A DNA stretch of 42,350 bases from Alphaproteobacteria bacterium (lineage in GTDB: Bacteria > Pseudomonadota > Alphaproteobacteria > Sphingomonadales > Kordiimonadaceae). Every line of letters starts with the position of its first letter. Position 1 is the stretch's first letter. Of the stretch, positions 24,499 through 40,712 are shown piece by piece. The stretch covers positions 1 to 42,350 of the forward strand of contig JABXIS010000018.1 in NCBI GenBank assembly GCA_013372975.1, written 5' to 3'. The notes under the pieces were generated by a model. The model was not told where the DNA came from and searched no databases. It was given only the letters and a program-made list of their open reading frames with translations. The translations under genes and the position numbers were made by a program.

Positions 24499-25692
24499 CT
24501 ACCGCAAGACCTTGACCAAGGCATCCACCACTTTGTGGACATCTTCATCAGACATCGCAGGGAATATTGGCAAACTCAAGACTTTGCCATAGTAGTCGCT
24601 GGCGCCAGGCAGATCCTGCTTACCGTACAAATTCCGGTAATAGGGCTGGTCTGACACCGGGATATAATGCACCTGTGTCCCTACACCGATTTCCGCCAAA
24701 GCTTTCATTACAGCCGCCCGGCTTTTACCAACCCGCGCAAAATCAATCAGTACCGGATATAGATGCCAGGCAGAGCTGGCCAGATTTGTTCGCTCAATGG
24801 GCACAACCATATTGGAATGTGTGCCCAAAAGTTTGTCATAGAGGCCTGCTATTTCTCTTCTGCGGGCAATGAAACGATCAAGTTTCCTGAGCTGGCTTAG
24901 CCCCAGCGCACACTGCATATCAGTTGCCCGGTAATTATAGCCTAGTGCTTGCATTTCATAATACCAGGGATTGGCATCCCCATTATCAGCGTCGAAACCT
25001 GCGGCACTATCCGCCCATTCCTCAGGCTCCCGCACCATGCCATGGCCGCGCAGAAGCCTCAATTCACGGGCAAACGTGTCGTTGTTAGTGGTAACGACTC
25101 CCCCTTCACCCATGGCAATAGACTTCACGGGATGAAGCGAAAAACAGCCGATATCTTCATATTGGCCGTCGCCGGGTCGGCCGCCAGTTTCGCCCGTATA
25201 TTCCGCGCCAAGGGCATGGCAACAATCGGTGATAACGGCGGCTCCCGCAGCTTTCGCAATTGCCGCAATCTCTTTCATTTCGGCGCATTGGCCATTCAGA
25301 TGCACTGGCATAACAGCACTGACGTTGCCGTCACTTTTCGCCAGTGCCGCTTTCAGGCTGGCAGCTGTCATCAAACCTGTAGCCGGGCAAACGTCCGCGA
25401 ACACCACATCTGCGCCGGCCATACGCACAACATTGGCAGTGGAAAGAAAGGTCACACTGGGCACAACCACCTTGCCCGCCACCCCCGCCACCAAAACGGC
25501 GAGGTGAAGGGCTGTTGTGCCATTTGAACAAACAACAGCATGTTTGGCGCCAATCTTCTCCGCAAAAGCCTGTTCAAAGGCGTCTACTTTTGGGCCACAT
25601 GTCAGGGCCCCGTTTTTCAACACATCGACAACGGCCTCAATATCGTCATCGTCAATCTGGTGGCGACCGTATGGTAGAAAGCTGTTCGACAT
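24499..25692 (-). CDS. pseC: PseC-type UDP-sugar aminotransferase
   Basis: The 397-residue protein is a DegT/DnrJ/EryC1-family PLP aminotransferase with the features of PseC. It has an N-terminal YGRHQIDDDDI, SNGTTALHLAV for phosphate binding, and the PLP lysine K190 in SLHPVKSIAMGEGG. The C-terminal FPAMSDEDVHKVVDALVKVL is also present. PseC aminates C4 of the UDP-4-keto-hexose made by PseB in CMP-pseudaminic acid synthesis. It follows pseB after 6 bases on the same strand and is the last gene of the operon, ending convergently with flagellin 1. Substrate stereochemistry is inferred from its pairing with pseB. Confidence 0.92.
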   Translation of the reverse strand: MSNSFLPYGRHQIDDDDIEAVVDVLKNGALTCGPKVDAFEQAFAEKIGAKHAVVCSNGTTALHLAVLVAGVAGKVVVPSVTFLSTANVVRMAGADVVFADVCPATGLMTAASLKAALAKSDGNVSAVMPVHLNGQCAEMKEIAAIAKAAGAAVITDCCHALGAEYTGETGGRPGDGQYEDIGCFSLHPVKSIAMGEGGVVTTNNDTFARELRLLRGHGMVREPEEWADSAAGFDADNGDANPWYYEMQALGYNYRATDMQCALGLSQLRKLDRFIARRREIAGLYDKLLGTHSNMVVPIERTNLASSAWHLYPVLIDFARVGKSRAAVMKALAEIGVGTQVHYIPVSDQPYYRNLYGKQDLPGASDYYGKVLSLPIFPAMSDEDVHKVVDALVKVLR

Positions 25693-25698
25693 CAGGGT

Positions 25699-26736
25699 CT
25701 ATTGCCCACCTTCCGGTATTGTTTTGAGAACTTCCCTGAGCTCTTCAACCGACATCCAGCTATCGTTTTTATCACTTACATATTCAAAGCCTTCGGGCAT
25801 CGTCGGGTGGCCCGTATCAGCCAAAGATTCCCGGCCCCAGAAGCTCCATTCCGGCTCAATGATGTATCTGTCGCCCAAATCAACCGTGCTACGTGCATTG
25901 TGCTCAGTAATCATGATTTCATGAAGCTTCTCACCAGGGCGTATCCCGACAATTTCTTGCTCAAGATCAGGCGCCAAAGCTGTAATAAGGTCTGTAATGC
26001 GCATGGACGGAATCTTGGGTACAAAAATTTCGCCGCCCCTCATTTTGGGGAGACAGGATAATGTGAAGGCTACTGCGTCCTCCAATGTTATCCAGAAACG
26101 TGTCATCCGCTCATCAGTTACCGGCAAAGCCTTTGCCCCATTCCTCATAAGCTCGCGGAAGAATGGAATCACACTTCCCTTGGAGCCCAAAACGTTGCCA
26201 TATCTAACGACCGAGAAGCGTGTTTCTGTACGTGAAGCCAGTGAATTTGCTGCAACAAATATTTTGTCCGAAGCCAGCTTGCTGGCACCATAAAGGTTGA
26301 TCGGATTTACCGCCTTGTCGGTTGAAAGAGCCAGTACATGCTTAACCCCCGCCCTGATTGAGGCTTGCACGACGTTTTCTGCACCAATCACGTTGGTTTT
26401 AATACATTCAAATGGATTATATTCAGCTAACGGAACCTGTTTTTGAGCAGCGGCATGAATGACCACTTCAACGTCACGCATCGCCATGATCAATCGTTCG
26501 CGATCCCTTACATCGCCAATAAAGAAACGGACTTTTCGCTGCTCTTCAGGTGTAAGTGAATGCTGTACCTGAAAGTGATTGAATTCGCCTCTTGCGAACA
26601 ATATCACGCGGCGTGGTTCATGAACTTTCAAAAGATGCTTAAGTAAGGTCCGACCAAAGGACCCGGTACCGCCAGTAATCAATACCGACTTTCCTTTTAG
26701 GTCACAGGCCTGATCATCAAACTTTGCGTTTCCCAT
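25699..26736 (-). CDS. pseB: PseB-type UDP-GlcNAc 4,6-dehydratase
   Basis: The product is about 345 residues with an extended-SDR Rossmann fold (SVLITGGTGSFGRTLLKHLL), the catalytic YGASK region (AVNPINLYGASKLASDKIF) and the PseB-type C-terminus (GEKLHEIMITEHNARSTVDL). It performs inverting 4,6-dehydration of UDP-GlcNAc, the first step of pseudaminic acid synthesis. The ATG at 26736 has GGAG 6 bases upstream; ATGs at 26748 and 26778 are possible and would add residues not typical of the family. It lies between the GH57-like gene and pseC on the same strand. Confidence 0.93.
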   Translation of the reverse strand: MGNAKFDDQACDLKGKSVLITGGTGSFGRTLLKHLLKVHEPRRVILFARGEFNHFQVQHSLTPEEQRKVRFFIGDVRDRERLIMAMRDVEVVIHAAAQKQVPLAEYNPFECIKTNVIGAENVVQASIRAGVKHVLALSTDKAVNPINLYGASKLASDKIFVAANSLASRTETRFSVVRYGNVLGSKGSVIPFFRELMRNGAKALPVTDERMTRFWITLEDAVAFTLSCLPKMRGGEIFVPKIPSMRITDLITALAPDLEQEIVGIRPGEKLHEIMITEHNARSTVDLGDRYIIEPEWSFWGRESLADTGHPTMPEGFEYVSDKNDSWMSVEELREVLKTIPEGGQ

Positions 26737-26801
26737 CGTCCTCTCCATATTGCGCCTTGCAGACACACTATCACCCAACGGCTTTGGCAGAAAGAATTCT
26801 T

Positions 26802-28814
26802 TTATTCTAATAAGTTAGGTGTCTTGCCAAGAAATATCCTTAATACAGGGTCCACGCCACCAGCTATCACGGCAGATTTGACCTCCGCGGGCTTTCGGGT
26901 TTCATCCTGTTCGCCTACACTCACACAGGCCCTAACAAACATCTTGTCGTCAGCCTTCGTGCATTTGACCATGCCCAACCCCGCACAATCCGTCCGCTTC
27001 ATCTCAATTCCAACAAGATTTTTACGGTCACCAAGAACCAGTATACCTTGGGTCATTCCTACAGCGGTACTGGCAGTTACCAACCGGGAGACAGGCTTAC
27101 CGTGGTCTATCTCGGCAATGGCACCGCCACCAAATAATTGAAAGACTTCAAGATCATGGCCACCATTGTGTGACCCGTAATAAAGTGACTCTTCATCAAA
27201 AAAACCAGGATTCAAGGTAATGTAGCCGAGCCGCGAACTACCCTCTGCATGCCCGCACAATAAACCAGTATTGCCCTTGTATGATATTGAAACTGAAGAC
27301 CTTTCTGGACAGAATCCTATTTCCTTGATCACTTCACCATGCCCAATTTGCAGCGCGGCAGAGATAACAATTTCCGACTTTTTCCCGCACCAGCGAACAG
27401 TGGGCTCACAGGAAACCAAATCTGTTACCTTATGAGAAGATGACGGTTCATAAACCCAATGACCGCTGAAAAAATCAGCGCCAAATTCAATGTCTTCAAA
27501 ATATCCATGACCCAAAGTACCGATCACCGATCCAGGATCAAGCTTGCCGGACATCGCCAGTTCGCACGTTCCATAGCCGAATGATTGGATGCAAAGCCCC
27601 TTGCGAGCATTTAAAACAAGGTGAACGCCCTTTGCCTCAATGGACAAAAAACGCCCGTCCCTTGCAACTTTCACATCGTCGGGTAAAGCCTCGTCGGTTT
27701 CACGGGGGGACACATCGCTAAAAGGCGCCAAACCAACCTTGTCCGTTAAAAGGTTCCAGCGTTTCTCCGTTAGGTGTGTCCTAAAATCGCTTGACCAAAG
27801 ATAACAAAGGTCCCGCCAATCCTCATCACCCTGGTTTGGGTCGTGCATAAGGTGGTCAAACTGCCGCCAACAGTGGGTATTGAGTGCCAGGTCATGTCGG
27901 CCAGTCAGACCCCACCTGGTTACATTATATTTTCTCTGCTTCTTAACAGGAACAGGCACTTGGCTGGTTTCCATATGTAATGGAGGGGAAGAGCGGTCAA
28001 CAAGGCGAAGCGCCTCCGACGGAAGTCCAAGTTGTACTTCATCACTGTTCTGCAAACTGGAAAGCAACAAGCCTATACGATCGAACTCGAAATGGCTGCC
28101 AAGAACCGCCTCTGCCTGGAATCTGCCGGGTCGAAAATCAAAAACCTCTGCGTCACTGGTATAAATTGGAATTGCTTCTGCGCCGCGTGCCATCTGCTCG
28201 GAAAGAAAGTCAAAATATTCCGCGGCAGAAAGTTCGCCGTGAGCATATCGCTGAAATTTTTGAAAGGTAATAGCGTCGGACCAAAGAACCGGAAGTGTCA
28301 CCCCTCCCTGCCCTTCTACAATCTGGGGCCTATCAATATAAGCCTTTTTCCAGGACTTGTTATGACTGGCAGGCTCGGCCCAATCCATAATTACTGCGCC
28401 GAAACCGGCTTCTTTATACAGACCCAGTATCCCGCGCGAATATGCCTGTTCATTAATCAGCGCGATGTTTGGGCGAACGCCCAATATCGACTGATAGTCT
28501 TCAAGTCCTAGACGCAAATTCTTCTCGGTTACCTGCGGGGGAGTAAGGGGCGCAATAATTTGGCAAAACCCGCTGGCAACAAATTCAACGAGGCCCTCAC
28601 TAAGCAGTTCCTTTATTTCAGATATCCATTTCGGCGAATATTTTTCGATTTCCCTTAGAGTATAGCTTGTGGCTTCAATCCCGACAGGAATGCCATCTCT
28701 AGCCAACCGCAAAAGGGGCCAATAGCAGTTTTCGATGACTGCAAGTCGATCCTCTTCCTCAATAGAGGAAAAAGCCAAATTCAAATGGAAAACAGTATAA
28801 AGTACCGGCTGCAT
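26802..28814 (-). CDS. GH57-like glycoside hydrolase/transferase
   Basis: The 670-residue protein has the layout of glycoside hydrolase family 57. An N-terminal beta/alpha barrel begins VLYTVFHLNLAFS. The candidate nucleophile is E122 in INEQAYS (family pattern E-x-A-Y). The candidate acid is D221 in YTSDAEVFDFRPGRF (family pattern D-x-E-x-F). A helical middle and a beta-rich C-terminal domain from about residue 390 follow. GH57 enzymes act on alpha-glucans or related sugars by a retaining mechanism. Finding one inside a nonulosonic-acid/flagellin cluster is unusual, and its substrate is unknown. It lies 24 bases after the ATP-grasp gene. GAGGGG is 11 bases from the ATG, which is weak. Confidence 0.72.
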   Translation of the reverse strand: MQPVLYTVFHLNLAFSSIEEEDRLAVIENCYWPLLRLARDGIPVGIEATSYTLREIEKYSPKWISEIKELLSEGLVEFVASGFCQIIAPLTPPQVTEKNLRLGLEDYQSILGVRPNIALINEQAYSRGILGLYKEAGFGAVIMDWAEPASHNKSWKKAYIDRPQIVEGQGGVTLPVLWSDAITFQKFQRYAHGELSAAEYFDFLSEQMARGAEAIPIYTSDAEVFDFRPGRFQAEAVLGSHFEFDRIGLLLSSLQNSDEVQLGLPSEALRLVDRSSPPLHMETSQVPVPVKKQRKYNVTRWGLTGRHDLALNTHCWRQFDHLMHDPNQGDEDWRDLCYLWSSDFRTHLTEKRWNLLTDKVGLAPFSDVSPRETDEALPDDVKVARDGRFLSIEAKGVHLVLNARKGLCIQSFGYGTCELAMSGKLDPGSVIGTLGHGYFEDIEFGADFFSGHWVYEPSSSHKVTDLVSCEPTVRWCGKKSEIVISAALQIGHGEVIKEIGFCPERSSVSISYKGNTGLLCGHAEGSSRLGYITLNPGFFDEESLYYGSHNGGHDLEVFQLFGGGAIAEIDHGKPVSRLVTASTAVGMTQGILVLGDRKNLVGIEMKRTDCAGLGMVKCTKADDKMFVRACVSVGEQDETRKPAEVKSAVIAGGVDPVLRIFLGKTPNLLE

Positions 28815-28838
28815 AAAGCTGTTTACCCCTCGCCGACA

Positions 28839-30053
28839 CTAAGACTTTACACTTATAGTAAAGGCGTCAAGTGCATTTTGCGCCGCAGCGATCGCTTCCG
28901 CTCGCGTATTTCCTGTAGCTTGCACCATGGCAACAGATGCAGCAGCATTCTCGGCTCCCCCCACGACATCTCCTGCCGATACCCAGCTATCAAATGCCAG
29001 AACTCCCTTAAGCCCACAAATTTCTGATGCAGCAGGAACACTTTCAATCACCCCAGGCGATGGAATAAGCCATCGTGTGCTGACAAATCTTTCATATTTT
29101 CCATGCCAATCAGATGCCTCCAGCCGCTCCCCTAGCGCCTGTCGCGCACATGCTTCAACAAGCTTCACACCGGTTGAATACGGGATCTGGTGGGTGCAAA
29201 AATATCCACCTGACAACCTGGCCGCCAGCTCGATGACATACGGGCGCCCTTCATGAACAACAATGTCACCTTTGACAATGCCGCGGGAAACCCCCAAAGC
29301 TTTCGATGCTGAGGATATAAGTGCTCGAACTGCATCAAGTATTTCGTCAGAAAGGCGGCTTGGCATATCACCGCCGTTTTCCACAATGAAAGGTTTGTAT
29401 TTCTCGAGGTATTCGTAACAACGATCCGAAAGCGCAGGCGTCACGGCCTGCCCGTCACACAGAATACTTTCGGTACTAAGCTGGGGACCAGAAAGAAATT
29501 TTTCAGCCATTACCCTGCCCGACGGTGACATTTCTTTGGCGTGCCGAAATGCCCATTCGGCTTGCCCCCGGTCGTCGAGAATGCTGACTCCTTTTGACCC
29601 TCTGCTATCAACAGGTTTCACTACCAACATTTGCCATTTTTCCAGCAGCTCGTCCAGGTCCTGAGCGGCTGTAACAATTGCATAAGGAGGCACAGAAATT
29701 CCGGAGGCGACCAATCGTTCTTTCATCGCAAATTTGTCGACGAACAGGTCCGCAACATCAACAGGAATCCCTGGCAAATTAAGGGATTGGGCAATTCTTG
29801 CGACCACATGAGGCACATCGCAGGCAAGGCACATTACGCCATCCAGCGGAAGCTTCTGGTGGAATTCCTGGATTGCTGGCAAACATTGGTCCAAATGGTA
29901 AACACTTGCCAGAATTGTGTGATGTGCAAGATCAAACCCTGGTGCGCTGGGGTCATAATCGCAGACCACAAGCTCCAAACCGAGATCAAGAATCTGCTCT
30001 AATCCTCGCAGCGCCTGCCTGCTGCCGCCCAGAACCAGCAGCCGCTTAGTCAA
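28839..30053 (-). CDS. ATP-grasp family ligase
   Basis: The roughly 404-residue protein has a PreATP-grasp N-terminal domain (KRLLVLGGSRQALRGLEQIL), then an ATP-grasp fold (MLVVKPVDSRGSKGVSILDD, GRVMAEKFLSGPQLSTESIL, PYVIELAARLSGGYFCTHQI). The ELAARLSGG stretch carries the metal-binding residues. Such enzymes join a carboxylate to an amine or other nucleophile using ATP. In this setting it might attach an amino-acid-type acyl group to an amino sugar, but no substrate is shown. A TTG start at 30053 is preferred because GCGGGA lies 6 bases upstream. The ATG at 30068 has no ribosome-binding site. The start overlaps the SDR gene. Confidence 0.85.
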   Translation of the reverse strand: MTKRLLVLGGSRQALRGLEQILDLGLELVVCDYDPSAPGFDLAHHTILASVYHLDQCLPAIQEFHQKLPLDGVMCLACDVPHVVARIAQSLNLPGIPVDVADLFVDKFAMKERLVASGISVPPYAIVTAAQDLDELLEKWQMLVVKPVDSRGSKGVSILDDRGQAEWAFRHAKEMSPSGRVMAEKFLSGPQLSTESILCDGQAVTPALSDRCYEYLEKYKPFIVENGGDMPSRLSDEILDAVRALISSASKALGVSRGIVKGDIVVHEGRPYVIELAARLSGGYFCTHQIPYSTGVKLVEACARQALGERLEASDWHGKYERFVSTRWLIPSPGVIESVPAASEICGLKGVLAFDSWVSAGDVVGGAENAAASVAMVQATGNTRAEAIAAAQNALDAFTISVKS

Positions 30054-30774
30054 AATACATCCCGCCATTCAAGTTAATAGTTTGCCCCGTAATATAACCA
30101 GCTTCGTCGGAGATTAGAAAATTTACTGCGGCGGCGATCTCAGAGACGTTAGCCAACCGACCAACCGGGATTCCCGCCACTTTCTTGATACCGTCATCAC
30201 GTGACAGCTCCGCCGCCGACATATCTGTCTGCGCAAGGCCGATTGCGATTGCGTTGGCAGTCACGCCTTTTTCCGAAAACAGCTTGGCGAGAGACCGGGT
30301 AAAGTTCAGCTGGGCCGCCTTAGCCGCAGCATAATGTACCTGATTGAGCCCACCCCACTGGCCACCAATCGAGGAAATATTCACTATACGCCCCCAACCT
30401 TGATCCAACATATGTGGAAGTGTTTCCTGTGCCAGCATAAAATTGGAACGAAGGTTGACAACCAACATATTGTCCCAGTCGTCATCGGTTATATCAAAAA
30501 AGGGCTTTTCCTGAGCAATGCCCGCATTATTTACCAATATGTCGACGGGCCCGAGGTCACGCTCAATGCATGATATGGCGCCTTTTATGGAACTTCTGGA
30601 CCCTACATCCAATTGAACACTGATACCTTGATCGGCTTCTTGGGCGATTGCGTCAGCACTATCTTTGTTTGATTGGTACCCGACGGCAACTTTGAAGCCT
30701 TCGGCAACCAGTCGCTTTGCGATGCCGGCGCCAATTCCCCTGCTTGCGCCAGTTATAAAAGCCACTTTTGTCAT
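30046..30774 (-). CDS. Short-chain dehydrogenase/reductase (FabG-like)
   Basis: The 242-residue classical SDR has the cofactor motif TGASRGIG (8-15), NNAG (82-85), catalytic Ser in NISS (132-135) and Y148-x3-K152. It ends with the usual ITGQTINLNGG. NADP is the likely cofactor because of the basic residue in the Gly motif. It resembles FabG/PtmA-like reductases. PtmA is known from legionaminic acid clusters, which is suggestive in this sugar island. It is 15 bases downstream of the transketolase C-terminal subunit and overlaps the ATP-grasp gene, so all are likely made together. The sugar or ketone substrate is unknown. Confidence 0.9.
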   Translation of the reverse strand: MTKVAFITGASRGIGAGIAKRLVAEGFKVAVGYQSNKDSADAIAQEADQGISVQLDVGSRSSIKGAISCIERDLGPVDILVNNAGIAQEKPFFDITDDDWDNMLVVNLRSNFMLAQETLPHMLDQGWGRIVNISSIGGQWGGLNQVHYAAAKAAQLNFTRSLAKLFSEKGVTANAIAIGLAQTDMSAAELSRDDGIKKVAGIPVGRLANVSEIAAAVNFLISDEAGYITGQTINLNGGMYFD

Positions 30775-30789
30775 CTAGATACCCTGCCC

Positions 30790-31755
30790 TTATTTCATCA
30801 AGCGCCGACACGCTGCGGCAATACTTGCGGCGTCTATACCAAACATCGCTGGTAGTTCGTCATGTTCGCCAGATTTACCAAATTTATCGTTCACACCAAC
30901 GAACTGCATGGGGGCCGGCTTGTGCTGAGCAAGGCATTCGGCAACTGCGCCACCGAGGCCGCCAATGATATTATGGTCCTCTGCAGTCACGATACCACGG
31001 GTCTCCGAGGCCGCCGCAATCACCTCATCGCTATCAAGAGGCTTGATTGTTGCCATATTGACAACTCGTACAGATACGCCTTCTTTTTCCAGCGAGGCGG
31101 CCGCTTCAAGCGCACGAGGCACCATAACGCCCGTCGCGATCACCGTAACATCGCTCCCGTCACGCAACCGATGTGCTTTTCCGATCTCGAAGCTGTGATC
31201 GTGGCCATACACAACCGGCGTCGCACTGCGGCCAATCCGCATATAAACAGGCCCGTCGTGATCCAGAATAGCCTTAAAAGCCATCATAAATTCATTGGCG
31301 TCGGCAGGGCTGATAACCGTTACACCGGGAATGGCGCGCATGGTTGCCAAATCTTCCAACATTTGCGCTGTTGCACCATCTGGTCCAACATCCAATCCGT
31401 GGTGGGAGCAACATAGCTTAACATTGCGCCCGGCATAGGCTATTGCCGTCCTAAATTGCTCGTGTGCCCGCATGCAACCGAACGCAGCAAAGGTGGAAAC
31501 TACAGGGATAAGGCCAGTATCGGCCACACCTGCAGCAGCAGCCATCATATTTTGCTCGGCAATACCAAATTGCATTACCCGATCGGGACGTTGTTGCACC
31601 AACGGCTTTGCCCCAGTTCCACCAGCGACATCTGCATCCAGGAAAACCCAATCATCGCGCTGATCTGCCATATGTACGAGAATACGGCCAAAGGCATCGC
31701 GCACGGAAACCTGCGCGCCCAGTTCCCAGAACATTAGACCTGCTTGATCATTCAT
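30790..31755 (-). CDS. Transketolase C-terminal subunit
   Basis: The 321-residue protein contains the pyrimidine-binding domain of transketolase (GIAEQNMMAAAAG with catalytic E67; DVGPDGATAQMLEDLATMRA) and the C-terminal transketolase domain (TVIATGVMVPRALEAA, IKPLDSDEVI). It must pair with the upstream N-terminal subunit to form an active TPP enzyme. The ATG at 31755 has AAGGAG 7 bases upstream; the GTG at 31758 is less likely. It overlaps the N-terminal subunit gene by 8 bases. Split transketolases occur in specialised sugar pathways, but the acceptor here is unknown. Confidence 0.92.
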   Translation of the reverse strand: MNDQAGLMFWELGAQVSVRDAFGRILVHMADQRDDWVFLDADVAGGTGAKPLVQQRPDRVMQFGIAEQNMMAAAAGVADTGLIPVVSTFAAFGCMRAHEQFRTAIAYAGRNVKLCCSHHGLDVGPDGATAQMLEDLATMRAIPGVTVISPADANEFMMAFKAILDHDGPVYMRIGRSATPVVYGHDHSFEIGKAHRLRDGSDVTVIATGVMVPRALEAAASLEKEGVSVRVVNMATIKPLDSDEVIAAASETRGIVTAEDHNIIGGLGGAVAECLAQHKPAPMQFVGVNDKFGKSGEHDELPAMFGIDAASIAAACRRLMK

Positions 31756-32560: not shown

Positions 32561-32585
32561 GTATCACCCCTGTTAACCAAAAATA

Positions 32586-32628: not shown

Positions 32629-32634
32629 CAGCCT

Positions 32635-32650: not shown

Positions 32651-32694
32651 ATTCGTTAATTTTTTATCACACAGACCAATATGCGCGGTGTGCG

Positions 32695-33687
32695 CTAGAG
32701 GTCATATCCATATTTCTGGAGATCCAGCCCATAAGTAGCTGCCAATCGCTGGTTCACACTTTTCACAAATGTCATGAACATGTCTTCTGTTTGTGCGTCC
32801 AATGTATAGTCAAGCTGAACATCAGGTTGCGCTTGCGCCAACCTTACAGAGGCGTTTCGCAACGTGTTCATCGCACTCAATCTCATCTGTTCGCGCAAAA
32901 ACAGGCTCTCAAACATCGGAGAATTATCTTCCATGGTATAGATATCACATGGCTCGTAACTGATGAAGCTGTTGCCGTTGATGGCATTGCCCTGCTCACG
33001 CAACAAATTCAGCATGTGATATGATGCCGCTTCAGAGAGGCCAGCATTCTCTTTTCCGAGCGATTCTGTGATATAGATACCAGATGCGGCCAGTGCTTCA
33101 TGCAGCGCCATCTGATTTTCCACAAGCTCTTCAAAACAAATGATTTTTACATCTGAAAAATGCTTGCTGGCGACATTGGCAATGCCGCAATAGTCAGTAG
33201 TGCCCAAAAAGGACCGCCCACCTTTGAGAAGTTCATATTTAACAAAATCCGCGTAATCTATCGGCAACCCACGATAGGCCATCCGGTAGCGATAATAAGA
33301 CCGCAGATACTTCACTGGATTTCGGACAACCATAAGCACTGTGGTGTCCTCAGGCATAACCTTTTTCAGGCGAACCATCCGTTCTTCGTAAGAGACACCT
33401 CCCAGTGCATAGGTCGCAGGGATACGTTCTTCGCTAAGGATAAGCGCCTGCTGTTTGTTTTTGACCATATTCTCGCGCGCAATGTCAAAAACGTTTTGCA
33501 CCAGTTCTTCGTTATAATGGTGGGTGGGCGTTTGCAGCAATTCAGTTTCCACTGCATACAAAACCGCCTTTGACAGGCGTTTCGAGGGCCCCATACCTAG
33601 CATTAGGTTATTTTTATCGCGGAAAAATAGGTCCTGAATCGACGTTGACATCGATTTTGGCATTCCAATGTGCAGAAGCCCCTTCAT
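32695..33687 (-). CDS. Sulfotransferase-like protein
   Basis: The 330-residue protein has the two PAPS-binding marks of sulfotransferases. The 5' phosphosulfate loop is near the N-terminus (HIGMPKSMSTSIQDLFF, about 6-22) and the 3' phosphate-binding segment is VVRNPVKYLRSYYRYRM. The family moves sulfate from PAPS to hydroxyl groups of sugars or lipids. In this island a sugar or glycan acceptor is likely but unproven. GAGGGA lies 6 bases before the ATG. Its stop lies upstream of the transketolase promoter, so it is probably a separate unit. Confidence 0.8.
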   Translation of the reverse strand: MKGLLHIGMPKSMSTSIQDLFFRDKNNLMLGMGPSKRLSKAVLYAVETELLQTPTHHYNEELVQNVFDIARENMVKNKQQALILSEERIPATYALGGVSYEERMVRLKKVMPEDTTVLMVVRNPVKYLRSYYRYRMAYRGLPIDYADFVKYELLKGGRSFLGTTDYCGIANVASKHFSDVKIICFEELVENQMALHEALAASGIYITESLGKENAGLSEAASYHMLNLLREQGNAINGNSFISYEPCDIYTMEDNSPMFESLFLREQMRLSAMNTLRNASVRLAQAQPDVQLDYTLDAQTEDMFMTFVKSVNQRLAATYGLDLQKYGYDL

Positions 33688-33859
33688 TGATCATCCCTCA
33701 TATTTCAGAAACTGGCCCTTCGAAAGTCCGAAGCCGAGAGAAAAAAGTCAAGAAAAATAATGAATTACCGTCAACACCCCGAAATCTGATCTTGGCTCGA
33801 CATAATTTCATCAGTAGACTTGCCAACATTGAAAACCATCGAAACCGGGAGAGGACCAA

Positions 33860-35062
33860 ATGCAAGAGCCAGAAACCAATAATGGCATGCGTCGCCCCTG
33901 TTTCGTTTGCGGCTCACTTGAAGGGCCCACCCACATCGACCGCACAGTCGATGTTCTGGGCGTTGGAAAGCAACGTATGGCCTACCGCGCATGCGGCAGC
34001 TGCGGCCTGGTCCTTCAGGACCCGGCTGTACCGGTAGAAATGATGCTTCGCTACTACCGTAATTTTTCCAATTACACCAATGCGGGCCGCGGTGGTGAAC
34101 CAACTGACCGGAAAAAGCTGATCGTTGAGGACCAAATCAAATTTGTGGCTTCCCATTCCTTGAAACCAGGTTCTGCCTTTCAGGTTGGCTGTTCGGATGG
34201 GTATACACTTAGCAGGTTTGCAGCAGCGGGATGGCGCGTTGCCGGCTGTGATCCATCACCAGCCACAATTGCCCTGGCTGAGGAAAAGTGGAATGTGAAG
34301 GCAACAGTTGGCGATTTTGAAAGCTATGAAGCAAGCGTTGGCGAAGTCTATGACCTCTTTATCCTGACGCACGTTCTGGAACATATATATGATCCCGTAG
34401 CTGCACTTCAAAAAGCCGAAGGCATGCTGGCTGATAACGGTGCCCTGCTTGTCGAGGTTCCCTTGCTTACAGAGGTTGAGCATCTGATTGAAGGCTATTT
34501 CACCTTCGAACATATCAACTATTTTTCACACAATTCGCTGGTCAATACATTGGAAAAGGCCGGATTTGAATTGGTTGGCTCCATTCACGATGACTATGAG
34601 GCGGACCAGTACCCTATCCAACGTCTGGTCGCAAAAAAGAAGAAGGACCCGAAGGCAAACCTGGTTCGGGAAGAAGTGTGGGCGGCGAACATCCTGGCCA
34701 ATTTTGAGGATTGGGAATTAAATCAATGGCAAAGCCGGACAGCCGCCGCAGTTGCCAAGGTTGGCAAAGGGAAACCGGCAATCATCTGGGCAGCCGGGCT
34801 TCATACCTCTCAATTGTTTTTTTATACCAATATCAGGAATGATTTGGATATCGTTGCGATTGTGGACAACGATTCACAGAAATGGGGCAGTCAACTGCAT
34901 GACATCGACGTCATTTCACCTGAAGACTTTTGGCAAAATCACGCAGATACGCCCCTGGTAATTTCTTCTCGTGCCAGTGAGAAAGAGATCGCAGCCAGCC
35001 TTGCAAGCAAAGGCAAGGCGCGCGACGAGATCATTCTATTATATCAGGACATCATTCATTAA
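33860..35062 (+). CDS. C-methyltransferase-like SAM enzyme with zinc-binding N-terminus
   Basis: The 400-residue protein has three parts. The N-terminal zinc-type domain contains CFVC (14-17) and CGSC (45-48). The class I SAM domain has motif I QVGCSDGYTLSRF and the post-motif ILTHVLEHIYDP. The C-terminal Rossmann-like domain (IIWAAGLHTSQLFFYTNI, VAIVDNDSQKWGSQLHDIDV) is typical of NDP-sugar C-methyltransferases. These add a methyl carbon to keto-sugars or act on related nucleotide sugars. GGGAGAGGA precedes the ATG. It ends 2 bases before the convergent pyruvyl-transferase-like gene. Confidence 0.82.
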   Translation: MQEPETNNGMRRPCFVCGSLEGPTHIDRTVDVLGVGKQRMAYRACGSCGLVLQDPAVPVEMMLRYYRNFSNYTNAGRGGEPTDRKKLIVEDQIKFVASHSLKPGSAFQVGCSDGYTLSRFAAAGWRVAGCDPSPATIALAEEKWNVKATVGDFESYEASVGEVYDLFILTHVLEHIYDPVAALQKAEGMLADNGALLVEVPLLTEVEHLIEGYFTFEHINYFSHNSLVNTLEKAGFELVGSIHDDYEADQYPIQRLVAKKKKDPKANLVREEVWAANILANFEDWELNQWQSRTAAAVAKVGKGKPAIIWAAGLHTSQLFFYTNIRNDLDIVAIVDNDSQKWGSQLHDIDVISPEDFWQNHADTPLVISSRASEKEIAASLASKGKARDEIILLYQDIIH

Positions 35063-35064
35063 TG

Positions 35065-36228
35065 CTACGGCCAGAAAGGCGCCTGCTCGTATAGCTCTTT
35101 CAGCCCACTTGCCCTATCTTGAAAAGCATTTTTCTGGCGCTCTCGAAGGGACACGTGTTCAGCTAGAAATTGGCTAATTCTGCTGCAGACCACGTCTTTG
35201 CTGTCGGTTAGGGCAATAGGGGCATCTGCATCAATGTCAGCACAGGCGTTCGCCGCATTATCGTTTTCGCTAATGCCAAAGACAGGCACCCCAGAAGCCG
35301 CTGCAAACAACATTGAATGCCTGCGGATACCGATCAAAGCGCAAGTGGTTCTATAAAAGTCATTGTACTGCGCAATATCCAGCCATTCCTCCTGCACAAA
35401 ATCAGCACCAAACTTCTGTTTGATATCCGCCAAGATGGTACGGTCGTCTACATATGGGTCATCAAGCCCATAGTAGCAGTGCGGGATTCCAACCGGTTCA
35501 AAACCGTTTTGCTTGATAGCGTCGACAACCCAGCCCATCATGGTCAGATAGCGTTCGTACGGCATACCGCTATAATCATCGTTGATATATCTCACCGAAA
35601 CGGCCACACGCTTGCTTCGCAGGTCAGACGGCTGCCAGTCCAGCGCAAAAGCCGGATCTGCCGCCACATACACATTTGGGTTTTTGCACCCTAAATCCCG
35701 AAGCACTTTCTCAGATTTTACATCTCTGACGCCCACGCTATCGCAATTTTCCACGATGAAACGAACAAATTCCTTGCCGCGATCAGTCCTTAGACCGATG
35801 AAGGTCATGGCATATATGTGAACGGGCACGCCGAGGAACTTACATATGGTTACAAGCGTTGACCAATAGGATAGTGGCCCTCGCATTACTCCGTCTACAA
35901 AATCCACCAGCAGACGGCCTCCACCGATTACCAGCCCCTCCGATTTCAGAAGATGCTGTACGAGCGAACCAAGGTGGTCTGTATTCTCACCAACATTGAA
36001 GCCACGGAAAAAGCGCCCCCGGCTGGCTTCCTTGTTTTCGAATTCAAAATTTTCGATGATCTCATCGGCCTGGTAAACCTTGGTGAGGACCTCATGGTCA
36101 TGACGAGACAGAAGCTTAACCCCCAAGCCTTTTTCTGAAGCCAATTCCGTGAAAAGCTTTAGCATGGCGTAGTCACCAACGTTTTTGGTGTCGTAACCTC
36201 CTGCCAAGACAAGATATCTATCCGCCAT
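35065..36228 (-). CDS. Polysaccharide pyruvyl transferase family protein
   Basis: The 387-residue protein starts MADRYLVLAGGYDTKNVGDY and matches the WcaK/AmsJ/CsaB-like pyruvyl transferase fold. Visible parts are EGLVIGGGRLLVDF, DSVGVRDVKSEKVLRDLG, VAVSVRYINDD and IGIRRHSMLFAAASGVPVFG. Relatives move pyruvate from PEP onto sugar hydroxyls as a ketal, or act in related sugar modifications. The ATG at 36228 has AAGGGG about 9 bases upstream; an ATG at 36258 would add 10 residues. It converges on the methyltransferase gene and diverges from the pseF-pseG fusion. Confidence 0.8.
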   Translation of the reverse strand: MADRYLVLAGGYDTKNVGDYAMLKLFTELASEKGLGVKLLSRHDHEVLTKVYQADEIIENFEFENKEASRGRFFRGFNVGENTDHLGSLVQHLLKSEGLVIGGGRLLVDFVDGVMRGPLSYWSTLVTICKFLGVPVHIYAMTFIGLRTDRGKEFVRFIVENCDSVGVRDVKSEKVLRDLGCKNPNVYVAADPAFALDWQPSDLRSKRVAVSVRYINDDYSGMPYERYLTMMGWVVDAIKQNGFEPVGIPHCYYGLDDPYVDDRTILADIKQKFGADFVQEEWLDIAQYNDFYRTTCALIGIRRHSMLFAAASGVPVFGISENDNAANACADIDADAPIALTDSKDVVCSRISQFLAEHVSLRERQKNAFQDRASGLKELYEQAPFWP

Positions 36229-36346
36229 GTCTGTCTGCCCCTTGTGAACCAATACCATATTGTTACCAGCTACTTACTGTGCCACATTGGCATAAATGTC
36301 CAAGAACTGAAACAACTTCAACCGTCATTTTCTGCATCGAAAAAAG

Positions 36347-38101
36347 TTGAAAACAACTGCAATCATACAAGCTCGAATGAGCTCAACGCGCCTACCAGCA
36401 AAGGTTTTGCAACCTCTGTGTGGCAAACCACTAATATGGCATATCATTCATCGTCTTAAAAAAAGCCGCCATATTGAAACAGTTGTTGTTGCTACCTCTT
36501 CTAAACCCAGTGACAATCCGTTGGAAGATTTTTGCAAGAATGAGGCCATCCCTATTGTAAGAGGATCCCTGAAAAATGTTCTTGCGCGTGTTGCCCTTGC
36601 TGCCGAAAAATTTCCGTCAGAATATATAGTCAGGGTGGCAGGCGACGCGCCCCTGATTGAAGCCGAGACAATTGACAAAATGATCGAGCTGCTTGAATTC
36701 GAGGATGCTGACCGCATTTTCGGCGATGGGCGGCCAACAATCCATTGCGGCTTCGAGGTTGTCAGCAGCAGGCTGTTCGCTACGATCCTGAAAGACTTTG
36801 GTGATGATCCAGTGGCAAAAGAGCATGTAACAGGCATGCTGGGTTTTAACCCGAACCTGGGCAAAGGGGCTAATTTTACCTTCGAAGACAGCCATGTAAT
36901 TGAAGGAGTGAATGCCTCTGTTGATACGCCTGCTGACCAGAGTTTTATCACCGCTCTATATCGGGAGACGGGTGCGACTGTGGGCGACCTATCGCTATCA
37001 GAAGCAGTGGCAGCCCTAAAAGCAAATCCCGCACTTTTGAATATAAACGCCGACGTGAAGCGAAAATCAGCCCTCGCCAAGTCTCAGATGATGCTATTTG
37101 TGGTCCAGGGCGGCAGTGAATATGGGTTGGGGCACCTCAAACGTTGCCTCAAGTTGGCCAACACGGCCAGGTCCCATTTTGCCTATGGCATTCATTTTCT
37201 ATATATCGGTGAAACGGGCCTTGAACTGATCGCTGCCGACGGCTTCCAGTGTACCGCGACCACAAAAGGGAAAGCTGCAGAGACATTAAAGAACCTGTCC
37301 GAAACGCTTGAGGCCAATCTTCTCGTTATTGATATAAAAGACGCCTTGTCCAAATCCGATTTGTGTTCGACAGAATTGCTCATGTCATTACCCATTTGCC
37401 TTATCGACGACGCTTCCGAACGGCTGGATGTTGCCACTGTTACTTTTGTGCCGCCAACGCCCGAAGTGACCGCCATCGACTGGAGCCAATTGAGCTGTAT
37501 ACCTTATATCGGCTGGAAATGGTCAATCGTTCCGAATGGCCCGGCTTTGCAATGCCCTACCCGGAAAGTTGATGATAAATCTCGTATTCTCCTAACGATG
37601 GGGGGAAGCGATCCCTATCGCTTAACAGAACGCTTCGCCGCCATTTTGGCAAAGACAGGCTGTGCAAACCCTGTATCGGTGTTGATCGGGCCTGACTTCC
37701 GGGAACCAAAGGAAACAATAAGCGAAGTAAAGACCTTCCTGCCCCATGCTGAAATGCTCGAGAATGTCACGGAAATGGGCAGCTTATTCCAGACACATGA
37801 CATTGTCTTGACGGCCTATGGTATGACAGTCCTGGAAGCACTGGCTTATGGATGTGCCACTGCATTCACGCCCCATTCGGAAAATGACAGCGAAGCGGCG
37901 ACAATGTTGGTAGAGGATGGGGCCGCGATCAATCTTGGACCACATGCCAGTACACCAGACGCCGTCATTGCAGGTCGGCTGAAATTGATGCTTTCCTCGC
38001 ACGAAAAATTAAATGCCATGGGGCAACGCGGCGCGGAAAAATTCTCACACGAAACATGCGAGAATATAATGCAGGTGCTCGCTTCACTTGAAGCGCGCTA
38101 G
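36347..38101 (+). CDS. Fused SpsF-type cytidylyltransferase and PseG-type UDP-sugar hydrolase
   Basis: The 584-residue protein joins two pathway steps. Residues 1 to about 245 are an SpsF/COG1861 nucleotidyltransferase (IIQARMSSTRLPAKVLQPL, RVAGDAPLIEAETIDKMIEL), which would activate a nonulosonic acid as CMP-sugar. Residues from about 250 to 584 are PseG-like (GGSEYGLGHLKRCLKLA with H263; ILLTMGGSDPYRLTERFAAI; LTAYGMTVLEALAYG), which removes UDP from the diamino sugar. The start is TTG at 36347, since the first residues already match the family and no ATG lies in frame before it. The ribosome-binding site is poor. It overlaps the PseI-like gene by 4 bases at the 3' end. Confidence 0.87.
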   Translation: MKTTAIIQARMSSTRLPAKVLQPLCGKPLIWHIIHRLKKSRHIETVVVATSSKPSDNPLEDFCKNEAIPIVRGSLKNVLARVALAAEKFPSEYIVRVAGDAPLIEAETIDKMIELLEFEDADRIFGDGRPTIHCGFEVVSSRLFATILKDFGDDPVAKEHVTGMLGFNPNLGKGANFTFEDSHVIEGVNASVDTPADQSFITALYRETGATVGDLSLSEAVAALKANPALLNINADVKRKSALAKSQMMLFVVQGGSEYGLGHLKRCLKLANTARSHFAYGIHFLYIGETGLELIAADGFQCTATTKGKAAETLKNLSETLEANLLVIDIKDALSKSDLCSTELLMSLPICLIDDASERLDVATVTFVPPTPEVTAIDWSQLSCIPYIGWKWSIVPNGPALQCPTRKVDDKSRILLTMGGSDPYRLTERFAAILAKTGCANPVSVLIGPDFREPKETISEVKTFLPHAEMLENVTEMGSLFQTHDIVLTAYGMTVLEALAYGCATAFTPHSENDSEAATMLVEDGAAINLGPHASTPDAVIAGRLKLMLSSHEKLNAMGQRGAEKFSHETCENIMQVLASLEAR

Positions 38102-38958
38102 GGCCGCCACCCTTCACGAATGGTCCGTAATGGCCGCAATCCATCTGTTGGATCCGCACGCCAATCCCGGTCAGGCGCTTCAGCGTCCGTGGCCACCTTT
38201 ACACCGGTGCCATCGGCAGAGAAGCCTTCCCTGACATTTGCGATAACAGGTGCGATTTCCTCAGGCAACCAGCAGTGCCCGGTTGCATATTCAGCGCCCC
38301 TTTCATCCAGATCCAGGTGGAATTCAATGATCGAGGCCTGATAAGCATGTATCGCGCGGTATAGAACGGCCGGGCTTCGAGAATGGTCCGACCACCCAAC
38401 CCGAACACCAAACCGGTTACGTATGGTATCAATGGCGGATAAATTGCACTGCTCTGCGGGTACAGGATAACCAGAGACACAATGCAGCAAAGTCAGGTCT
38501 TCTCCTCCCGCATCATGAAAACACTTAACTGCGTGCCCAATTTCATCCAAAGTTGCCATTCCCGTCGACAAAATTGTCGGCACACCTGTTTTCGCACACG
38601 CTGCGATCAGGTCATCCCACAAAAGTTCGTATGATGCGATTTTGAAGAAATCGACCATTGGCGCCAGAATTTCGACGGCCTCAAGGAAAAAAGGCGTGCA
38701 GGAAAACTGCACTCCCTTTTCCACACACCTTTGTTTTATGTGCGGCAGAAATTCCTCTGGCAATTCCCACTGTTTGCGACGGCTATGTTCCTTACTTTGA
38801 CTCAGGATTTCTGGCGCAAACAATTCATCAATTCGGAACAGCTGAAACTTAACCGCATCAACACCGCTTGCTGCACTTGCATCCACAAACTCAAGGCAAC
38901 GGTCCAAATCCCGCGCGTGGTTGCTGGATACTTCAGAAATAAACAAAGGGGCCGTCAT
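38098..38958 (-). CDS. NeuB/PseI-family nonulosonic acid synthase lacking SAF domain
   Basis: The 286-residue protein has the NeuB-family TIM barrel: FISEVSSNHARDLDRCLEFV, GVDAVKFQLFRIDELFAPE, KIASYELLWDDLIAAC, ILSTGMATLDEIGHAV, LLHCVSGYPVP and GWSDHS. The family condenses PEP with an amino hexose to make sialic, legionaminic or pseudaminic acids. Usual members are about 340-350 residues and end in an SAF (antifreeze-like) domain. Here the protein stops after about 285 residues with a short tail (ADPTDGLRPLRTIREGWRP). Either the SAF role is lost or supplied by another protein, or this is a variant synthase. It lies 17 bases after the flmG-like gene on the same strand. Confidence 0.85.
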   Translation of the reverse strand: MTAPLFISEVSSNHARDLDRCLEFVDASAASGVDAVKFQLFRIDELFAPEILSQSKEHSRRKQWELPEEFLPHIKQRCVEKGVQFSCTPFFLEAVEILAPMVDFFKIASYELLWDDLIAACAKTGVPTILSTGMATLDEIGHAVKCFHDAGGEDLTLLHCVSGYPVPAEQCNLSAIDTIRNRFGVRVGWSDHSRSPAVLYRAIHAYQASIIEFHLDLDERGAEYATGHCWLPEEIAPVIANVREGFSADGTGVKVATDAEAPDRDWRADPTDGLRPLRTIREGWRP

Positions 38959-38975
38959 AGGGCTTTAATTCCTGC

Positions 38976-40712
38976 TCAATGAGTGGCAACAAAATCAGCC
39001 AAAGCCAGCCGAACATCATCCACAGGTCCATCCCAACTGCCCAAACGCCCTTCCTGCGTGAAAAAACGACCTTGTGGCAAAAACTTCGGACGACCTTCCT
39101 CGCAGCCAAACCGCCACCAAGGTTGAAGTTCTGTCATCCACCATGTGGGGGTGCCGACGCTCGCCGCGAATGTCAGTGGGGAAACCCCAGCCCCCAGAAC
39201 CAGATCCAAATTCTCAGCGATCGCCAGATTTGCCTCAATATTTTTCTTCATATCGATATCGTCAAACCGATGAATCTTGATGCCATGGGCTTTTTCAAAG
39301 GCCTCTACTTCCTCGCGCACGTCGGTATATTGCAAGCTGAAAAAGTGCACCCCTTTTTGTTGGAGTACAGGAAGAAGTTTTTCCAATGACAAGTAGGCGC
39401 GGGAACGCTCAATTGTCATATGACCACTTCGCCAGGCGATTCCCACTTTCAACCCTTCACCCACGCTTGAAATTCTCTCCGCCAGAGCCTTCTTCAAGCC
39501 CTTGTCTGCGTGAAGAAATCCTTCAGGGAATTCCGGAATATCTTCAATCGATTTCCAGTAATACCTAGGCAAACTTGCGATTGGGACAGCCCAATCTATC
39601 TCAAGCCCCTCATCGCGAATTGCGTATTCAATATCGGGATAAGAACGATAGATATAGCCATAGGCGCTTTTTGTGGCTCCAGGTACCACCGTTGCATTCG
39701 GGAACCGTCGTTCGAAAATCGTCACCAGACGTTTCTCACAACCAATGTATAGCTTCTCAGCCTCTTCATATACGCGCTCAAGCATGATGCTGAACAGAAT
39801 CTCGTCCCCAATGCCCTGCTCACCTGTTACAAACAGGGACTTTCCCTTGAGACTGCTTCCGTCCCAGACAGGAACCTTGTGCGTGTAAATCAGTGTCTGC
39901 CCAAGCTTGCGGCGCGGATCAAGCCGCCACTCATATTCCTCGAAGCCATTTACCAGATCACCGTCATGCATCAAACAGAAGGCCTTGGATATATGCAGTT
40001 CCGGGGTATCAGGGTGAACTTTCAGCCCGCGCTCTGCCAGCGCCAGACGCTTCTTCGTGTCCATCTCCACGAAGGCCAAGTTGTTCATTGCCTTGAAACT
40101 TTTCGGGTTCAGCCGCAGTGCTTCCTCGAAAAATACCTTGGATGCTTCCCGGCCATCGCGCTTCTGGACCGTATGCCCCAGAACGTTCCATAGTCCTGAA
40201 TGCTCAGGAAAGATCGGAATTACATTCTTAAGCATATCAATACCGGCATCCAGCTGGTCTGCGCCCGCAAGCGCTGATCCCAGGTTCACATAATGTGAGG
40301 CTGTATTGGGGTCCAGTTCGATAAGGGCACGGCCGATTTTCACTGCCGTATCATACATGGACATCTCGAGCGCCATCTGCAGCATAATTGCGCAGATATC
40401 CGGGGTTGGCTCGTGCCGCGACAAAGTTTTTTCCAAAACTTCGATCGCTTTCTCTCGCACCCCCAATTGCACAAGGGCATGAGACAGAATGGTCAACAGG
40501 GCCAGATCATCTGAATAGTATTCCCAGGCCCGAAGCAAATGCTTAACGGCTACAGGCCAGTCTCTTTTCTGGGAAGCCTTCTTGCCAAGCGCAATTTCCT
40601 TGTCGGCTTGCGACTTTGAAATCTTCGGCTTGCTTTTCGCAGCAGCCTGGTCAATTGAAGTAATGGGGCGCAAGGGCTTCAAGGCCATCTCAGCTTTTTC
40701 CTTGTCCGCCAT
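38976..40712 (-). CDS. flmG: FlmG-like flagellin glycosyltransferase with TPR domain
   Basis: The 578-residue protein combines a basic N-terminus, a tetratricopeptide region at about residues 35-260 (VKHLLRAWEYYSDDLALLTI, ASHYVNLGSALAGADQLDAG) and a GT-B-like C-terminal region. The latter shows SLFVTGEQGIGDEILFSIML, LKVGIAWRSGH and DLVLGAGVSPLTFAASVGTP. This is the domain order of Caulobacter FlmG, which binds flagellin through its TPRs and adds nonulosonic acid. The ATG at 40712 has AGGAG 7 bases upstream. A sigma-54 promoter lies 104 bases upstream, and it is followed by the PseI-like gene in the same transcript. Confidence 0.87.
   Translation of the reverse strand: MADKEKAEMALKPLRPITSIDQAAAKSKPKISKSQADKEIALGKKASQKRDWPVAVKHLLRAWEYYSDDLALLTILSHALVQLGVREKAIEVLEKTLSRHEPTPDICAIMLQMALEMSMYDTAVKIGRALIELDPNTASHYVNLGSALAGADQLDAGIDMLKNVIPIFPEHSGLWNVLGHTVQKRDGREASKVFFEEALRLNPKSFKAMNNLAFVEMDTKKRLALAERGLKVHPDTPELHISKAFCLMHDGDLVNGFEEYEWRLDPRRKLGQTLIYTHKVPVWDGSSLKGKSLFVTGEQGIGDEILFSIMLERVYEEAEKLYIGCEKRLVTIFERRFPNATVVPGATKSAYGYIYRSYPDIEYAIRDEGLEIDWAVPIASLPRYYWKSIEDIPEFPEGFLHADKGLKKALAERISSVGEGLKVGIAWRSGHMTIERSRAYLSLEKLLPVLQQKGVHFFSLQYTDVREEVEAFEKAHGIKIHRFDDIDMKKNIEANLAIAENLDLVLGAGVSPLTFAASVGTPTWWMTELQPWWRFGCEEGRPKFLPQGRFFTQEGRLGSWDGPVDDVRLALADFVATH

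Follow-up and report, generated by a model that had tools for sequence, protein, structure and literature searches.

The window analysed here is a stretch of 42,350 nucleotides that represents one entire contig (JABXIS010000018.1) of the Kordiimonadaceae genome GCA_013372975.1 (3.63 Mb in 96 contigs), and it harbours an island of putative flagellin glycosylation genes. The island is bounded at the left by a flagellin gene (23546-24376, + strand; Pfam Flagellin_N and Flagellin_C) and at the right by flbT (40966-41355, +; PF07378, with NF001995 over the cut-off) and flaF (41381-41800, +; PF07309). A sigma-54 site of the -24/-12 type, TGGCACACCCATTGCA (23471-23486, +), is located 60 bases upstream of the flagellin start, and another, TGGCACTTTGATTGCA (40816-40831, −), 86 bases upstream of the first possible start of the flmG-like gene. 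The strict pattern TGGCAC-N5-TTGCW was thus found twice in the window against 0.10 expected occurrences, and two or more were observed in 0 of 100 shuffles. The same strict pattern was likewise found twice in Kordiimonas gwangyangensis, and a looser one was present upstream of flagellin and/or flmG in 13 of 15 other loci scanned. An initial annotation, made from the sequence alone, had described a sigma-54-linked flagellin sugar island with an atypical enzyme set; the genes it listed are all present with the same boundaries, and the sigma-54 link is borne out by the two strict sites.

Two members of the pseudaminic acid pathway are standard, as had been claimed. PseB, the inverting UDP-GlcNAc 4,6-dehydratase (25699-26778, −), scored 487.7 bits with TIGR03589 (cut-off 407.75; the scored query started at 26745) and gave the only match in the genome at E <= 1e-100, and PseC, the UDP-4-amino-4,6-dideoxy-AltNAc transaminase (24499-25692, −), scored 460.2 bits with TIGR03588 (cut-off 423.5). 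The PseF/PseG-type fusion and the PseI-type synthase of the initial annotation were also found, but both fall below the Pse cut-offs. The fusion (36347-38101, +; PF02348) joins a cytidylyltransferase to a PseG-like hydrolase, which we take to be SpsF-like and SpsG-like halves; KdsB-type cytidylyltransferases fit its N-terminal half better than PseF, whose model matched only in part (29.9 bits, cut-off 205.7), and the PseG-like half reached 79.9 bits with TIGR03590 (cut-off 153.55). The NeuB/PseI-type synthase (38098-38958, −; 286 amino acids) matched PF03102 only and stops where full-length relatives run on into the SAF region. With 165.6 bits (cut-off 340.25), it was the sole match to the PseI model in the genome at E <= 1e-10. 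In a tree, 17 such short NeuB sequences from several Pseudomonadota families and Solidesulfovibrio formed one group with a support of 100/100, and the long branch L116 was placed beside it. PseH had no match in the island, an absence that the initial annotation had left unremarked; the best match in the genome reached 44.4 bits (cut-off 93.1), and this protein, the sole GNAT above 40 bits, is encoded in a stretch without island-like genes. Judged from its sequence, the island would therefore represent a non-standard pseudaminic acid pathway with no PseH over the cut-off in the genome, a NeuB without a SAF domain, and an SpsF-SpsG fusion in the place of PseF and PseG. The NeuB of Caulobacter cannot function without an arginine in its antifreeze-like (SAF) domain (PMC7591256), so the loss of this domain here fits an altered, bulkier substrate.

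The island also encodes an ATP-grasp carboxylate-amine ligase of the LAL_C2 type (28839-30068, −; 409 amino acids; PF18603 and PF02655), proposed here as the replacement of PseH. By sequence, its closest solved structure is the L-amino acid ligase BL00235 (3vot), a type of enzyme that joins a carboxylate to an amine. Its partner gene encodes a GH57 family protein (26802-28814, −; PF03065, 49.1 bits over 21.2) that would take part in a recurring step of the pathway. GH57 residues E122 and D221 align with E123 and D214 of 1k1w, the catalytic pair of the family, and are unchanged in 20 of 20 aligned sequences; with both catalytic residues of a glycosidase intact, a function as a deacetylase was rejected. 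Structure prediction of GH57 from two aligned sequences gave a mean pLDDT (predicted local distance difference test) of 41. The FlmG-like flagellin glycosyltransferase (38976-40730, −) combines TPR domain matches with a C-terminal domain. Its prediction, also from two aligned sequences, had a mean pLDDT of 52, and the confident TPR part alone was used: helices at approximately residues 31-240 that match TPR proteins, including the TPRs of O-GlcNAc transferase. The C-terminal half, where an FlmG would be expected to have its GT-B domain, had no Pfam match, and its predicted model was of low confidence.

A FabG-like short-chain dehydrogenase/reductase (SDR; 30046-30774, −; assigned by family profiles) and a split transketolase complete the set of putative acid-building enzymes. 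The C-terminal half of the transketolase (30790-31758, −; PF02779/PF02780) keeps the catalytic Glu, and the N-terminal half, which binds thiamine diphosphate (31748-32560, −; PF00456), has the split-chain transketolase 6yak as its nearest solved structure. The columns of human E366, R318, H416, D424, Q428 and R474 were kept in 13 of 13 transketolase sequences, and the S345 column, the fourth phosphate-binding position, is Gly in all 13. Taking these columns to be the catalytic Glu and four phosphate-binding residues, three of them kept, the pattern points to a sugar phosphate as the donor and to a changed pocket. An acetolactate-synthase-like thiamine pyrophosphate (TPP) enzyme of the SfmB type was not found in the window by the TPPals profile model, and the split transketolase stands in its stead.

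Three further genes vary among the related loci. The gene that had been called a sulfotransferase (32695-33687, −) is present, outside the recurring core, but lacks Pfam support (best E 0.014); its motifs, read by eye, are presumably sulfotransferase-like. Pfam Sulfotransfer_3 genes are present in four other loci, so sulfation may recur. The second is an S-adenosylmethionine (SAM)-dependent methyltransferase (33860-35062, +; 400 amino acids; PF13489) with similar proteins in several related loci, and the third a polysaccharide pyruvyl transferase-like, CsaB-like protein (35065-36258, −; PF04230; 96.2 bits with TIGR03609, cut-off 213.1). A sulfated or pyruvylated sugar is possible.

The distribution of the ligase was followed in overlapping genome samples of the class, the phylum, the order and another class. 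Searched with the ATP-grasp protein, 385 genomes of the class gave 14 matches at E <= 1e-20, of which ten also reached E <= 1e-60. At this second threshold, a ten-row profile matched 4 of 398 genomes of the phylum, 8 of 369 of the other class and 20 of 99 of the order, the last including 14 of the 17 genomes of the genus, the window's own among them. Within the 99 genomes of the order, ATP-grasp and GH57 were each present in 20, both in 19 and neither in 78 (Fisher 4e-18, phylogeny not corrected); the exceptions were G767, with ATP-grasp only, and G804, where GH57 is cut by the contig end (L115). PseH at E <= 1e-20, a count that omits weaker PseH-like genes such as that of G794, was detected in ten of the 99, with no overlap with the ATP-grasp or GH57 genomes. 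Among the 49 genomes with PseB, 19 carried ATP-grasp, nine PseH and none both (hypergeometric 0.007, not corrected).

BLAST and profile searches served to read the gene neighbourhoods in 39 ligase stretches (ATP-grasp at 150 bits or more) from 37 genomes and one plasmid, with G116 split over two contigs; the profile thresholds were set by us, the models were built partly from the same loci, and many stretches stop at contig ends. PseH matched in 0 of these 39, GH57 was found in 31 and PseB was in view in 24. All 22 stretches with a SAF-less NeuB contained both ATP-grasp and GH57. In comparison, PseH matched in 8 of 15 viewed genomes without ATP-grasp (chosen loci, five of these eight having served to build the PseH model). 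The count of 39 leaves out L042, since L068 appears to be the same genome, and the four loci L038-L041 of genomes with weaker ATP-grasp matches (G320, G331, G306 and G346). The module was absent from the neighbourhoods of these four; in L041, a neighbouring gene is PseC-like at 25%.

Plasmid records gave 12 ATP-grasp matches, of which four were opened; the module was present on that of Solidesulfovibrio only, and the Acetoanaerobium record came without a gene table. A GH57 search returned one record, the same Solidesulfovibrio carbinolicus plasmid, pDCAR1 (L043), which carries a PseB/PseC-GH57-ATP-grasp-transketolase-SDR-NeuB module. The acetolactate-synthase-like enzyme matched 99 plasmid records and, among the 20 matches listed, these were mostly annotated as acetolactate synthase. 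No flagellin was annotated or matched in the 29 kb of pDCAR1 viewed (its gene table is incomplete), so the module is not exclusive to flagellin loci, and the tie of the extra genes to flagellin genes that had been proposed does not hold throughout. The plasmid is also rich in radical SAM, methyltransferase and further transketolase genes. On a Brachyspira hyodysenteriae plasmid (L044), an ATP-grasp relative lies near three genes annotated as "ATP-grasp fold amidoligase" and near rhamnose genes, possibly for amide-decorated sugars.

The same flagellar slot is occupied by different gene sets in related genomes. The nearest named relative found, Kordiimonas gwangyangensis DSM 19435 (L042), which was the one relative returned when genome contigs were scanned with the single ATP-grasp sequence, has a largely conserved gene order from flagellin to flbT/flaF; its locus includes a radical SAM gene and lacks sulfotransferase and CsaB-like genes. 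In G794, of the same genus, the flagellin-FlmG slot (L109) contains a PseH-like gene below the cut-off (71.4 bits) together with PseF, PseG and a full-length PseI of 357 amino acids, all three over the cut-off. The slot of G812 has PseH over the cut-off, PseF-like and PseG-like genes and a NeuB of 382 amino acids, and that of G815, whose flagellin and FlgI are 93% and 88% identical to those of the window, has a PseF-like gene and a NeuB of 355 amino acids; nothing resembling GH57, ATP-grasp, SDR or transketolase was found on its 13.5-kb contig. Further gene sets occupy the slot in other genomes of the family (L111, L113 and L114). By their gene content, the set of ATP-grasp, GH57, SAF-less NeuB and SpsF-SpsG and the set of PseH, PseF and full-length NeuB alternate as whole sets in one slot.

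Among the relatives with the ligase, the genes between the ligase and the SpsF-SpsG fusion are exchanged, while the ligase, GH57 and the flagellar frame stay constant. The extra genes had been read as a single set for decoration; those for GH57, ATP-grasp, SAF-less NeuB and SpsF-SpsG do recur together, but the transketolase and SDR are one of several exchangeable cassettes, and the sulfotransferase, methyltransferase and CsaB-like genes vary. The SDR and split transketolase cassette is shared by the window, K. gwangyangensis, L069-L071, L074, L028-L032, L034, L127 and Solidesulfovibrio (L043). Besides SDR and transketolase, a second transketolase pair with iron-containing alcohol dehydrogenases (Fe-ADHs) is present in L075, L077-L079 and, rearranged, L076; the cassette of L075 also has a KDO8P-synthase-like protein. 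Other loci carry an acetolactate-synthase-like TPP enzyme with an SDR and/or a methyltransferase (L033, L035 and L128-L131), a NeuB-like synthase with SAF, sulfopyruvate/phosphonopyruvate-decarboxylase-like subunits and an Fe-ADH (L072, with a related set in L128), or a fructose-6-phosphate-aldolase-like protein, below the cut-off, with an SDR (L073). A Gfo/Idh/MocA oxidoreductase with an FkbM-like methyltransferase was identified in L082 by Pfam, in L083 and L084 by similarity, and in L080 at the same position. This pattern of cassette exchange had no earlier description in the open-access literature searched.

In the tree, ligases tend to group by the type of their cassette. Of the 30 stretches whose ATP-grasp scored 396 or more, 26 have a TPP-enzyme marker over the threshold (G671 has a weaker marker with transketolase Pfam domains; G744, G116 and G1041 have none). 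The nine below 396, two of which have truncated ATP-grasp proteins, show no such marker. Three changes account for the TPP label on the ATP-grasp tree, compared with 8.1 in shuffles. Supported ligase groups comprise the MocA type, five of six loci of the acetolactate-synthase type, and the double-transketolase type with the single-pair locus L074; three deep groups occur inside one genus. As exceptions, L073 and L132 are placed among the transketolase types.

The sister genomes G756 and G658 display such a change of cassette. Identity is 100% for FlgI, 99% for flagellin, 96% for PseB, 92% for GH57, 82% for PseC and 81% for ATP-grasp, and their DNA match (86.6%) extends to the start of the ATP-grasp gene. 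Past this start the cassettes differ, save for weak family-level similarity (NeuB 32%, methyltransferase 28%), and SpsF-SpsG, NeuB and FlmG are 49, 72 and 67% identical. A match that ends at the ATP-grasp start is the pattern expected from a cassette swap by recombination. Two of the loci contain additional genes of these kinds. In L128 (9422-19998, G941), near a flagellin-like gene, an acetolactate-synthase-like TPP enzyme and SDR were observed along with a NeuB-like synthase, decarboxylase-like subunits and an Fe-ADH, two chain-building sets that may act together. In L069 (3555-5884, G784), two more ATP-grasp proteins lie by the transketolase cassette, one of them with LAL_C2 and PylC-like N-terminal domains.

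We lean slightly towards a pathway in which the island makes a pseudaminic-acid-type flagellin sugar whose PseC-installed amine (the future N7) is acylated with a polyhydroxy acid by the ATP-grasp ligase and not acetylated by PseH. PseB and PseC, by their curated models, would produce UDP-4-amino-4,6-dideoxy-AltNAc. With a sugar phosphate as donor, the split transketolase would add a two-carbon ketol unit to an acid that bears an aldehyde, the SDR would reduce the new ketone to give a polyol acid, and the methyltransferase, perhaps with the sulfotransferase and CsaB-like protein, would decorate it. The ATP-grasp enzyme, by its family and its standing in for PseH, would couple this acid to the amine. 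According to their families, the SpsG half would then take off UDP, the SAF-less NeuB would condense the bulky sugar with phosphoenolpyruvate (PEP), the SpsF half would add CMP, and FlmG would transfer the product to flagellin. Every substrate, the amide bond and the position of the amide are what we infer from these gene families and their co-occurrence. Of the decorations suggested by the initial annotation for its nonulosonic acid, "acylated" is the one favoured by the comparative evidence, which also agrees with a flagellin-linked nonulosonic acid pathway.

In relatives, the acid-building cassette would be swapped while the ligase, GH57 and the sigma-54-controlled flagellar frame are retained. 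A modular glycan system may be encoded, in which a constant ligase frame (PseB/PseC, GH57, ATP-grasp, SAF-less NeuB, SpsF-SpsG and FlmG) takes interchangeable carbon-chain-building cassettes for different polyhydroxy acids and the N-acyl group is changed by recombinational cassette swap. These cassettes would be of the transketolase, acetolactate-synthase-like, PEP-synthase/2-oxoacid-decarboxylase, KDO8P-synthase-like and fructose-6-phosphate-aldolase-like types, mostly with SDR or Fe-ADH reductases. We put this extension forward tentatively, as a plausible possibility short of a probable one.

The island is a flagellin modification of an already known kind, that of the Sfm system of Shewanella oneidensis, in a new variant form. 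According to the parts of PMC3765264 on Shewanella, sfmABCDE encodes a 290-amino-acid NeuB, a TPP enzyme (ilvB), a FabG-like SDR, a SAM methyltransferase of 395 and an ATP-grasp protein of 412 amino acids. By composition and length only, this set resembles the window (NeuB 290/286, methyltransferase 395/400, ATP-grasp 412/409, SDR, TPP enzyme and a flagellin link). The two differ in that SfmB is acetolactate-synthase-like and the window has a split transketolase, that Shewanella has Maf-type candidates and the window FlmG, and that the window contains GH57, of which those parts make no mention. They report PseB and PseC homologues and no clear orthologues of PseH, G, I or F. The flagellin there bears a pseudaminic-type sugar of 274 Da (C11H18N2O6), which has a single N-acetyl group and two nitrogens, and a second, nitrogen-free unit of C9H16O7 plus zero to two CH2, at least one of them as O-methyl, whose structure was unsolved (PMC3765264). 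As an amide, this unit would by our computation correspond to an acid C9H18O8 with one unsaturation, that is, a polyol acid.

Other systems share parts of this organisation. The classical CMP-Pse5Ac7Ac pathway has PseB, PseC, a PseG-like half below its cut-off and a NeuB-type synthase in common with the window, which in contrast lacks PseH, has a SAF-less NeuB and another cytidylyltransferase for PseF, and adds GH57, ATP-grasp and the acid-building cassette. The FlaB of Treponema denticola reportedly carries a pseudaminic-type sugar of 450.2 Da with one N-acetyl group and a 2-methoxy-4,5,6-trihydroxyhexanoyl group at N7; the 450.18 Da that we computed for this structure agrees with that mass. 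Its triol end is what would result if a ketol unit were transferred to a four-carbon aldehyde acid and the product then reduced. FlmG of Caulobacter crescentus (596 residues) is likewise a TPR protein of similar size linked to a flagellin nonulosonic acid pathway; unlike in the window, pseudaminic acid is made there with the PseH-like FlmH and a NeuB that retains the essential arginine (PMC7591256). In Clostridium difficile type B, an ATP-grasp carboxylate-amine ligase is also found among flagellin modification genes, but the product is a sulfonated peptidylamido-glycan without nonulosonic acid and the partner genes are others (PMC5207246).

Several observations weigh against acylation by the ligase as proposed here. 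In G809, of the same genus, an SDR and split transketolase lie beside PseH-like and PseF-like genes (L105), and neither ATP-grasp nor GH57 matched in this genome at E <= 1e-60; perhaps an acyl-carrier route leads to a similar acyl group there. FabZ-like, aminoglycoside-acetyltransferase-like and radical SAM/B12 genes were also observed near PseB in L105/L106 of this genome. Relatives of the ligase occur without pse genes in view in L132 (13.8 kb), L086 and, at contig ends, L036 and L037, and PseB is in view at only the 24 ligase stretches given above. Four ligase loci contain a full-length NeuB, which is an additional copy in L072 and L128 and the sole one, far from the ligase, in L085 and L133. 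GH57 has no assigned step, and the ligase tree places the transketolase-like L087 with the MocA group, L033 with L043, and L074 with the double-transketolase type. In Shewanella, deletion of the ATP-grasp gene kept the filament and gave a slightly smaller mass shift than in the sfmA-D mutants, which moved to about the unmodified mass (PMC3765264); the loss of a ligase that acts early would be expected to have no milder an effect. The 236-264 Da unit came off readily in source (PMC3765264), which could mean a glycosidic bond, and its formula, by computation, fits a deoxy sugar equally well.

This ready loss, and an ATP-grasp mutant that keeps its filament and part of the modification (PMC3765264), would also suit an ordinary or mono-acetylated nonulosonic acid, with ATP-grasp, transketolase and SDR serving a second unit held by a glycosidic or other bond, or the ligase adding an amino acid elsewhere on the sugar, and hence with an unrecognised acetyltransferase in the place of PseH. 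The proximity of the ligase to L-amino acid ligases among solved structures and the weak GNAT matches in the genome point the same way. We nevertheless consider this unlikely: no glycosyltransferase family was above the cut-off in the island (the C-terminal half of FlmG has no Pfam match), the stretch with the sole GNAT above 40 bits has no island-like gene, PseH and ATP-grasp were never found together in the sampled order, and the inner unit of Shewanella has two nitrogens and a single N-acetyl group (PMC3765264).

Less probable still is that the 4-keto nucleotide sugar from PseB has its backbone branched or lengthened by transketolase and SDR, with the ATP-grasp enzyme as a decorating ligase. 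Two-carbon branching TPP enzymes act in this way in some antibiotic sugars, TPP enzymes with a reductase are known tools for such chemistry, and a SAF-less NeuB would suit an altered backbone. However, PseC, the consumer of the 4-keto sugar, adjoins PseB in the window as well as in those related loci that show both PseB and its far side; MocA cassettes without a TPP enzyme occupy the cassette position alongside the same GH57, short NeuB and SpsF-SpsG; and the inner unit of Shewanella has the normal composition of mono-N-acetyl pseudaminic acid (C11H18N2O6; PMC3765264). A standard pathway to pseudaminic acid, in which the other genes are unrelated passengers that serve capsule or lipopolysaccharide, would agree with the standard PseB and PseC and with the several genes of general glycan enzyme types, but it is very improbable given that PseH, PseI and PseF are not standard members here and that the extra genes recur, tightly co-occurring, in comparable loci across several families, several classes and one plasmid from a different phylum.

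The 2013 study of Shewanella settled neither the outer unit nor the roles of the TPP, SDR and ATP-grasp genes (PMC3765264). The pattern described here, which spans several Pseudomonadota families and one Thermodesulfobacteriota plasmid, offers a testable answer, an amide-linked acid from TPP or aldolase chemistry. SAF-less NeuB, ATP-grasp and GH57 without PseH would constitute a sequence signature for predicting extended N-acyl pseudaminic acids. If ligase-dependent acylation holds, whole-cassette swaps would change the surface chemistry of the flagellum, which could bear on phage adsorption and on the recognition of flagella.

Rfam at its gathering thresholds and a tRNA scan gave no matches in the window. 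Outside the island, a second flagellin gene begins at the contig end (42076-42350, +), with a sigma-54-like site at 41976 that has one mismatch to the search pattern; the genome contains ten Flagellin_N matches. At 4503-6976 (−), a small DUF2282 precursor (6566-6871), an MbnB/TglH/ChrH-type enzyme, a DUF2063 partner and then, by eye, a DoxX-like gene were identified, a gene set that we take to be a bufferin-type operon for a metal-binding ribosomally synthesised and post-translationally modified peptide (RiPP).

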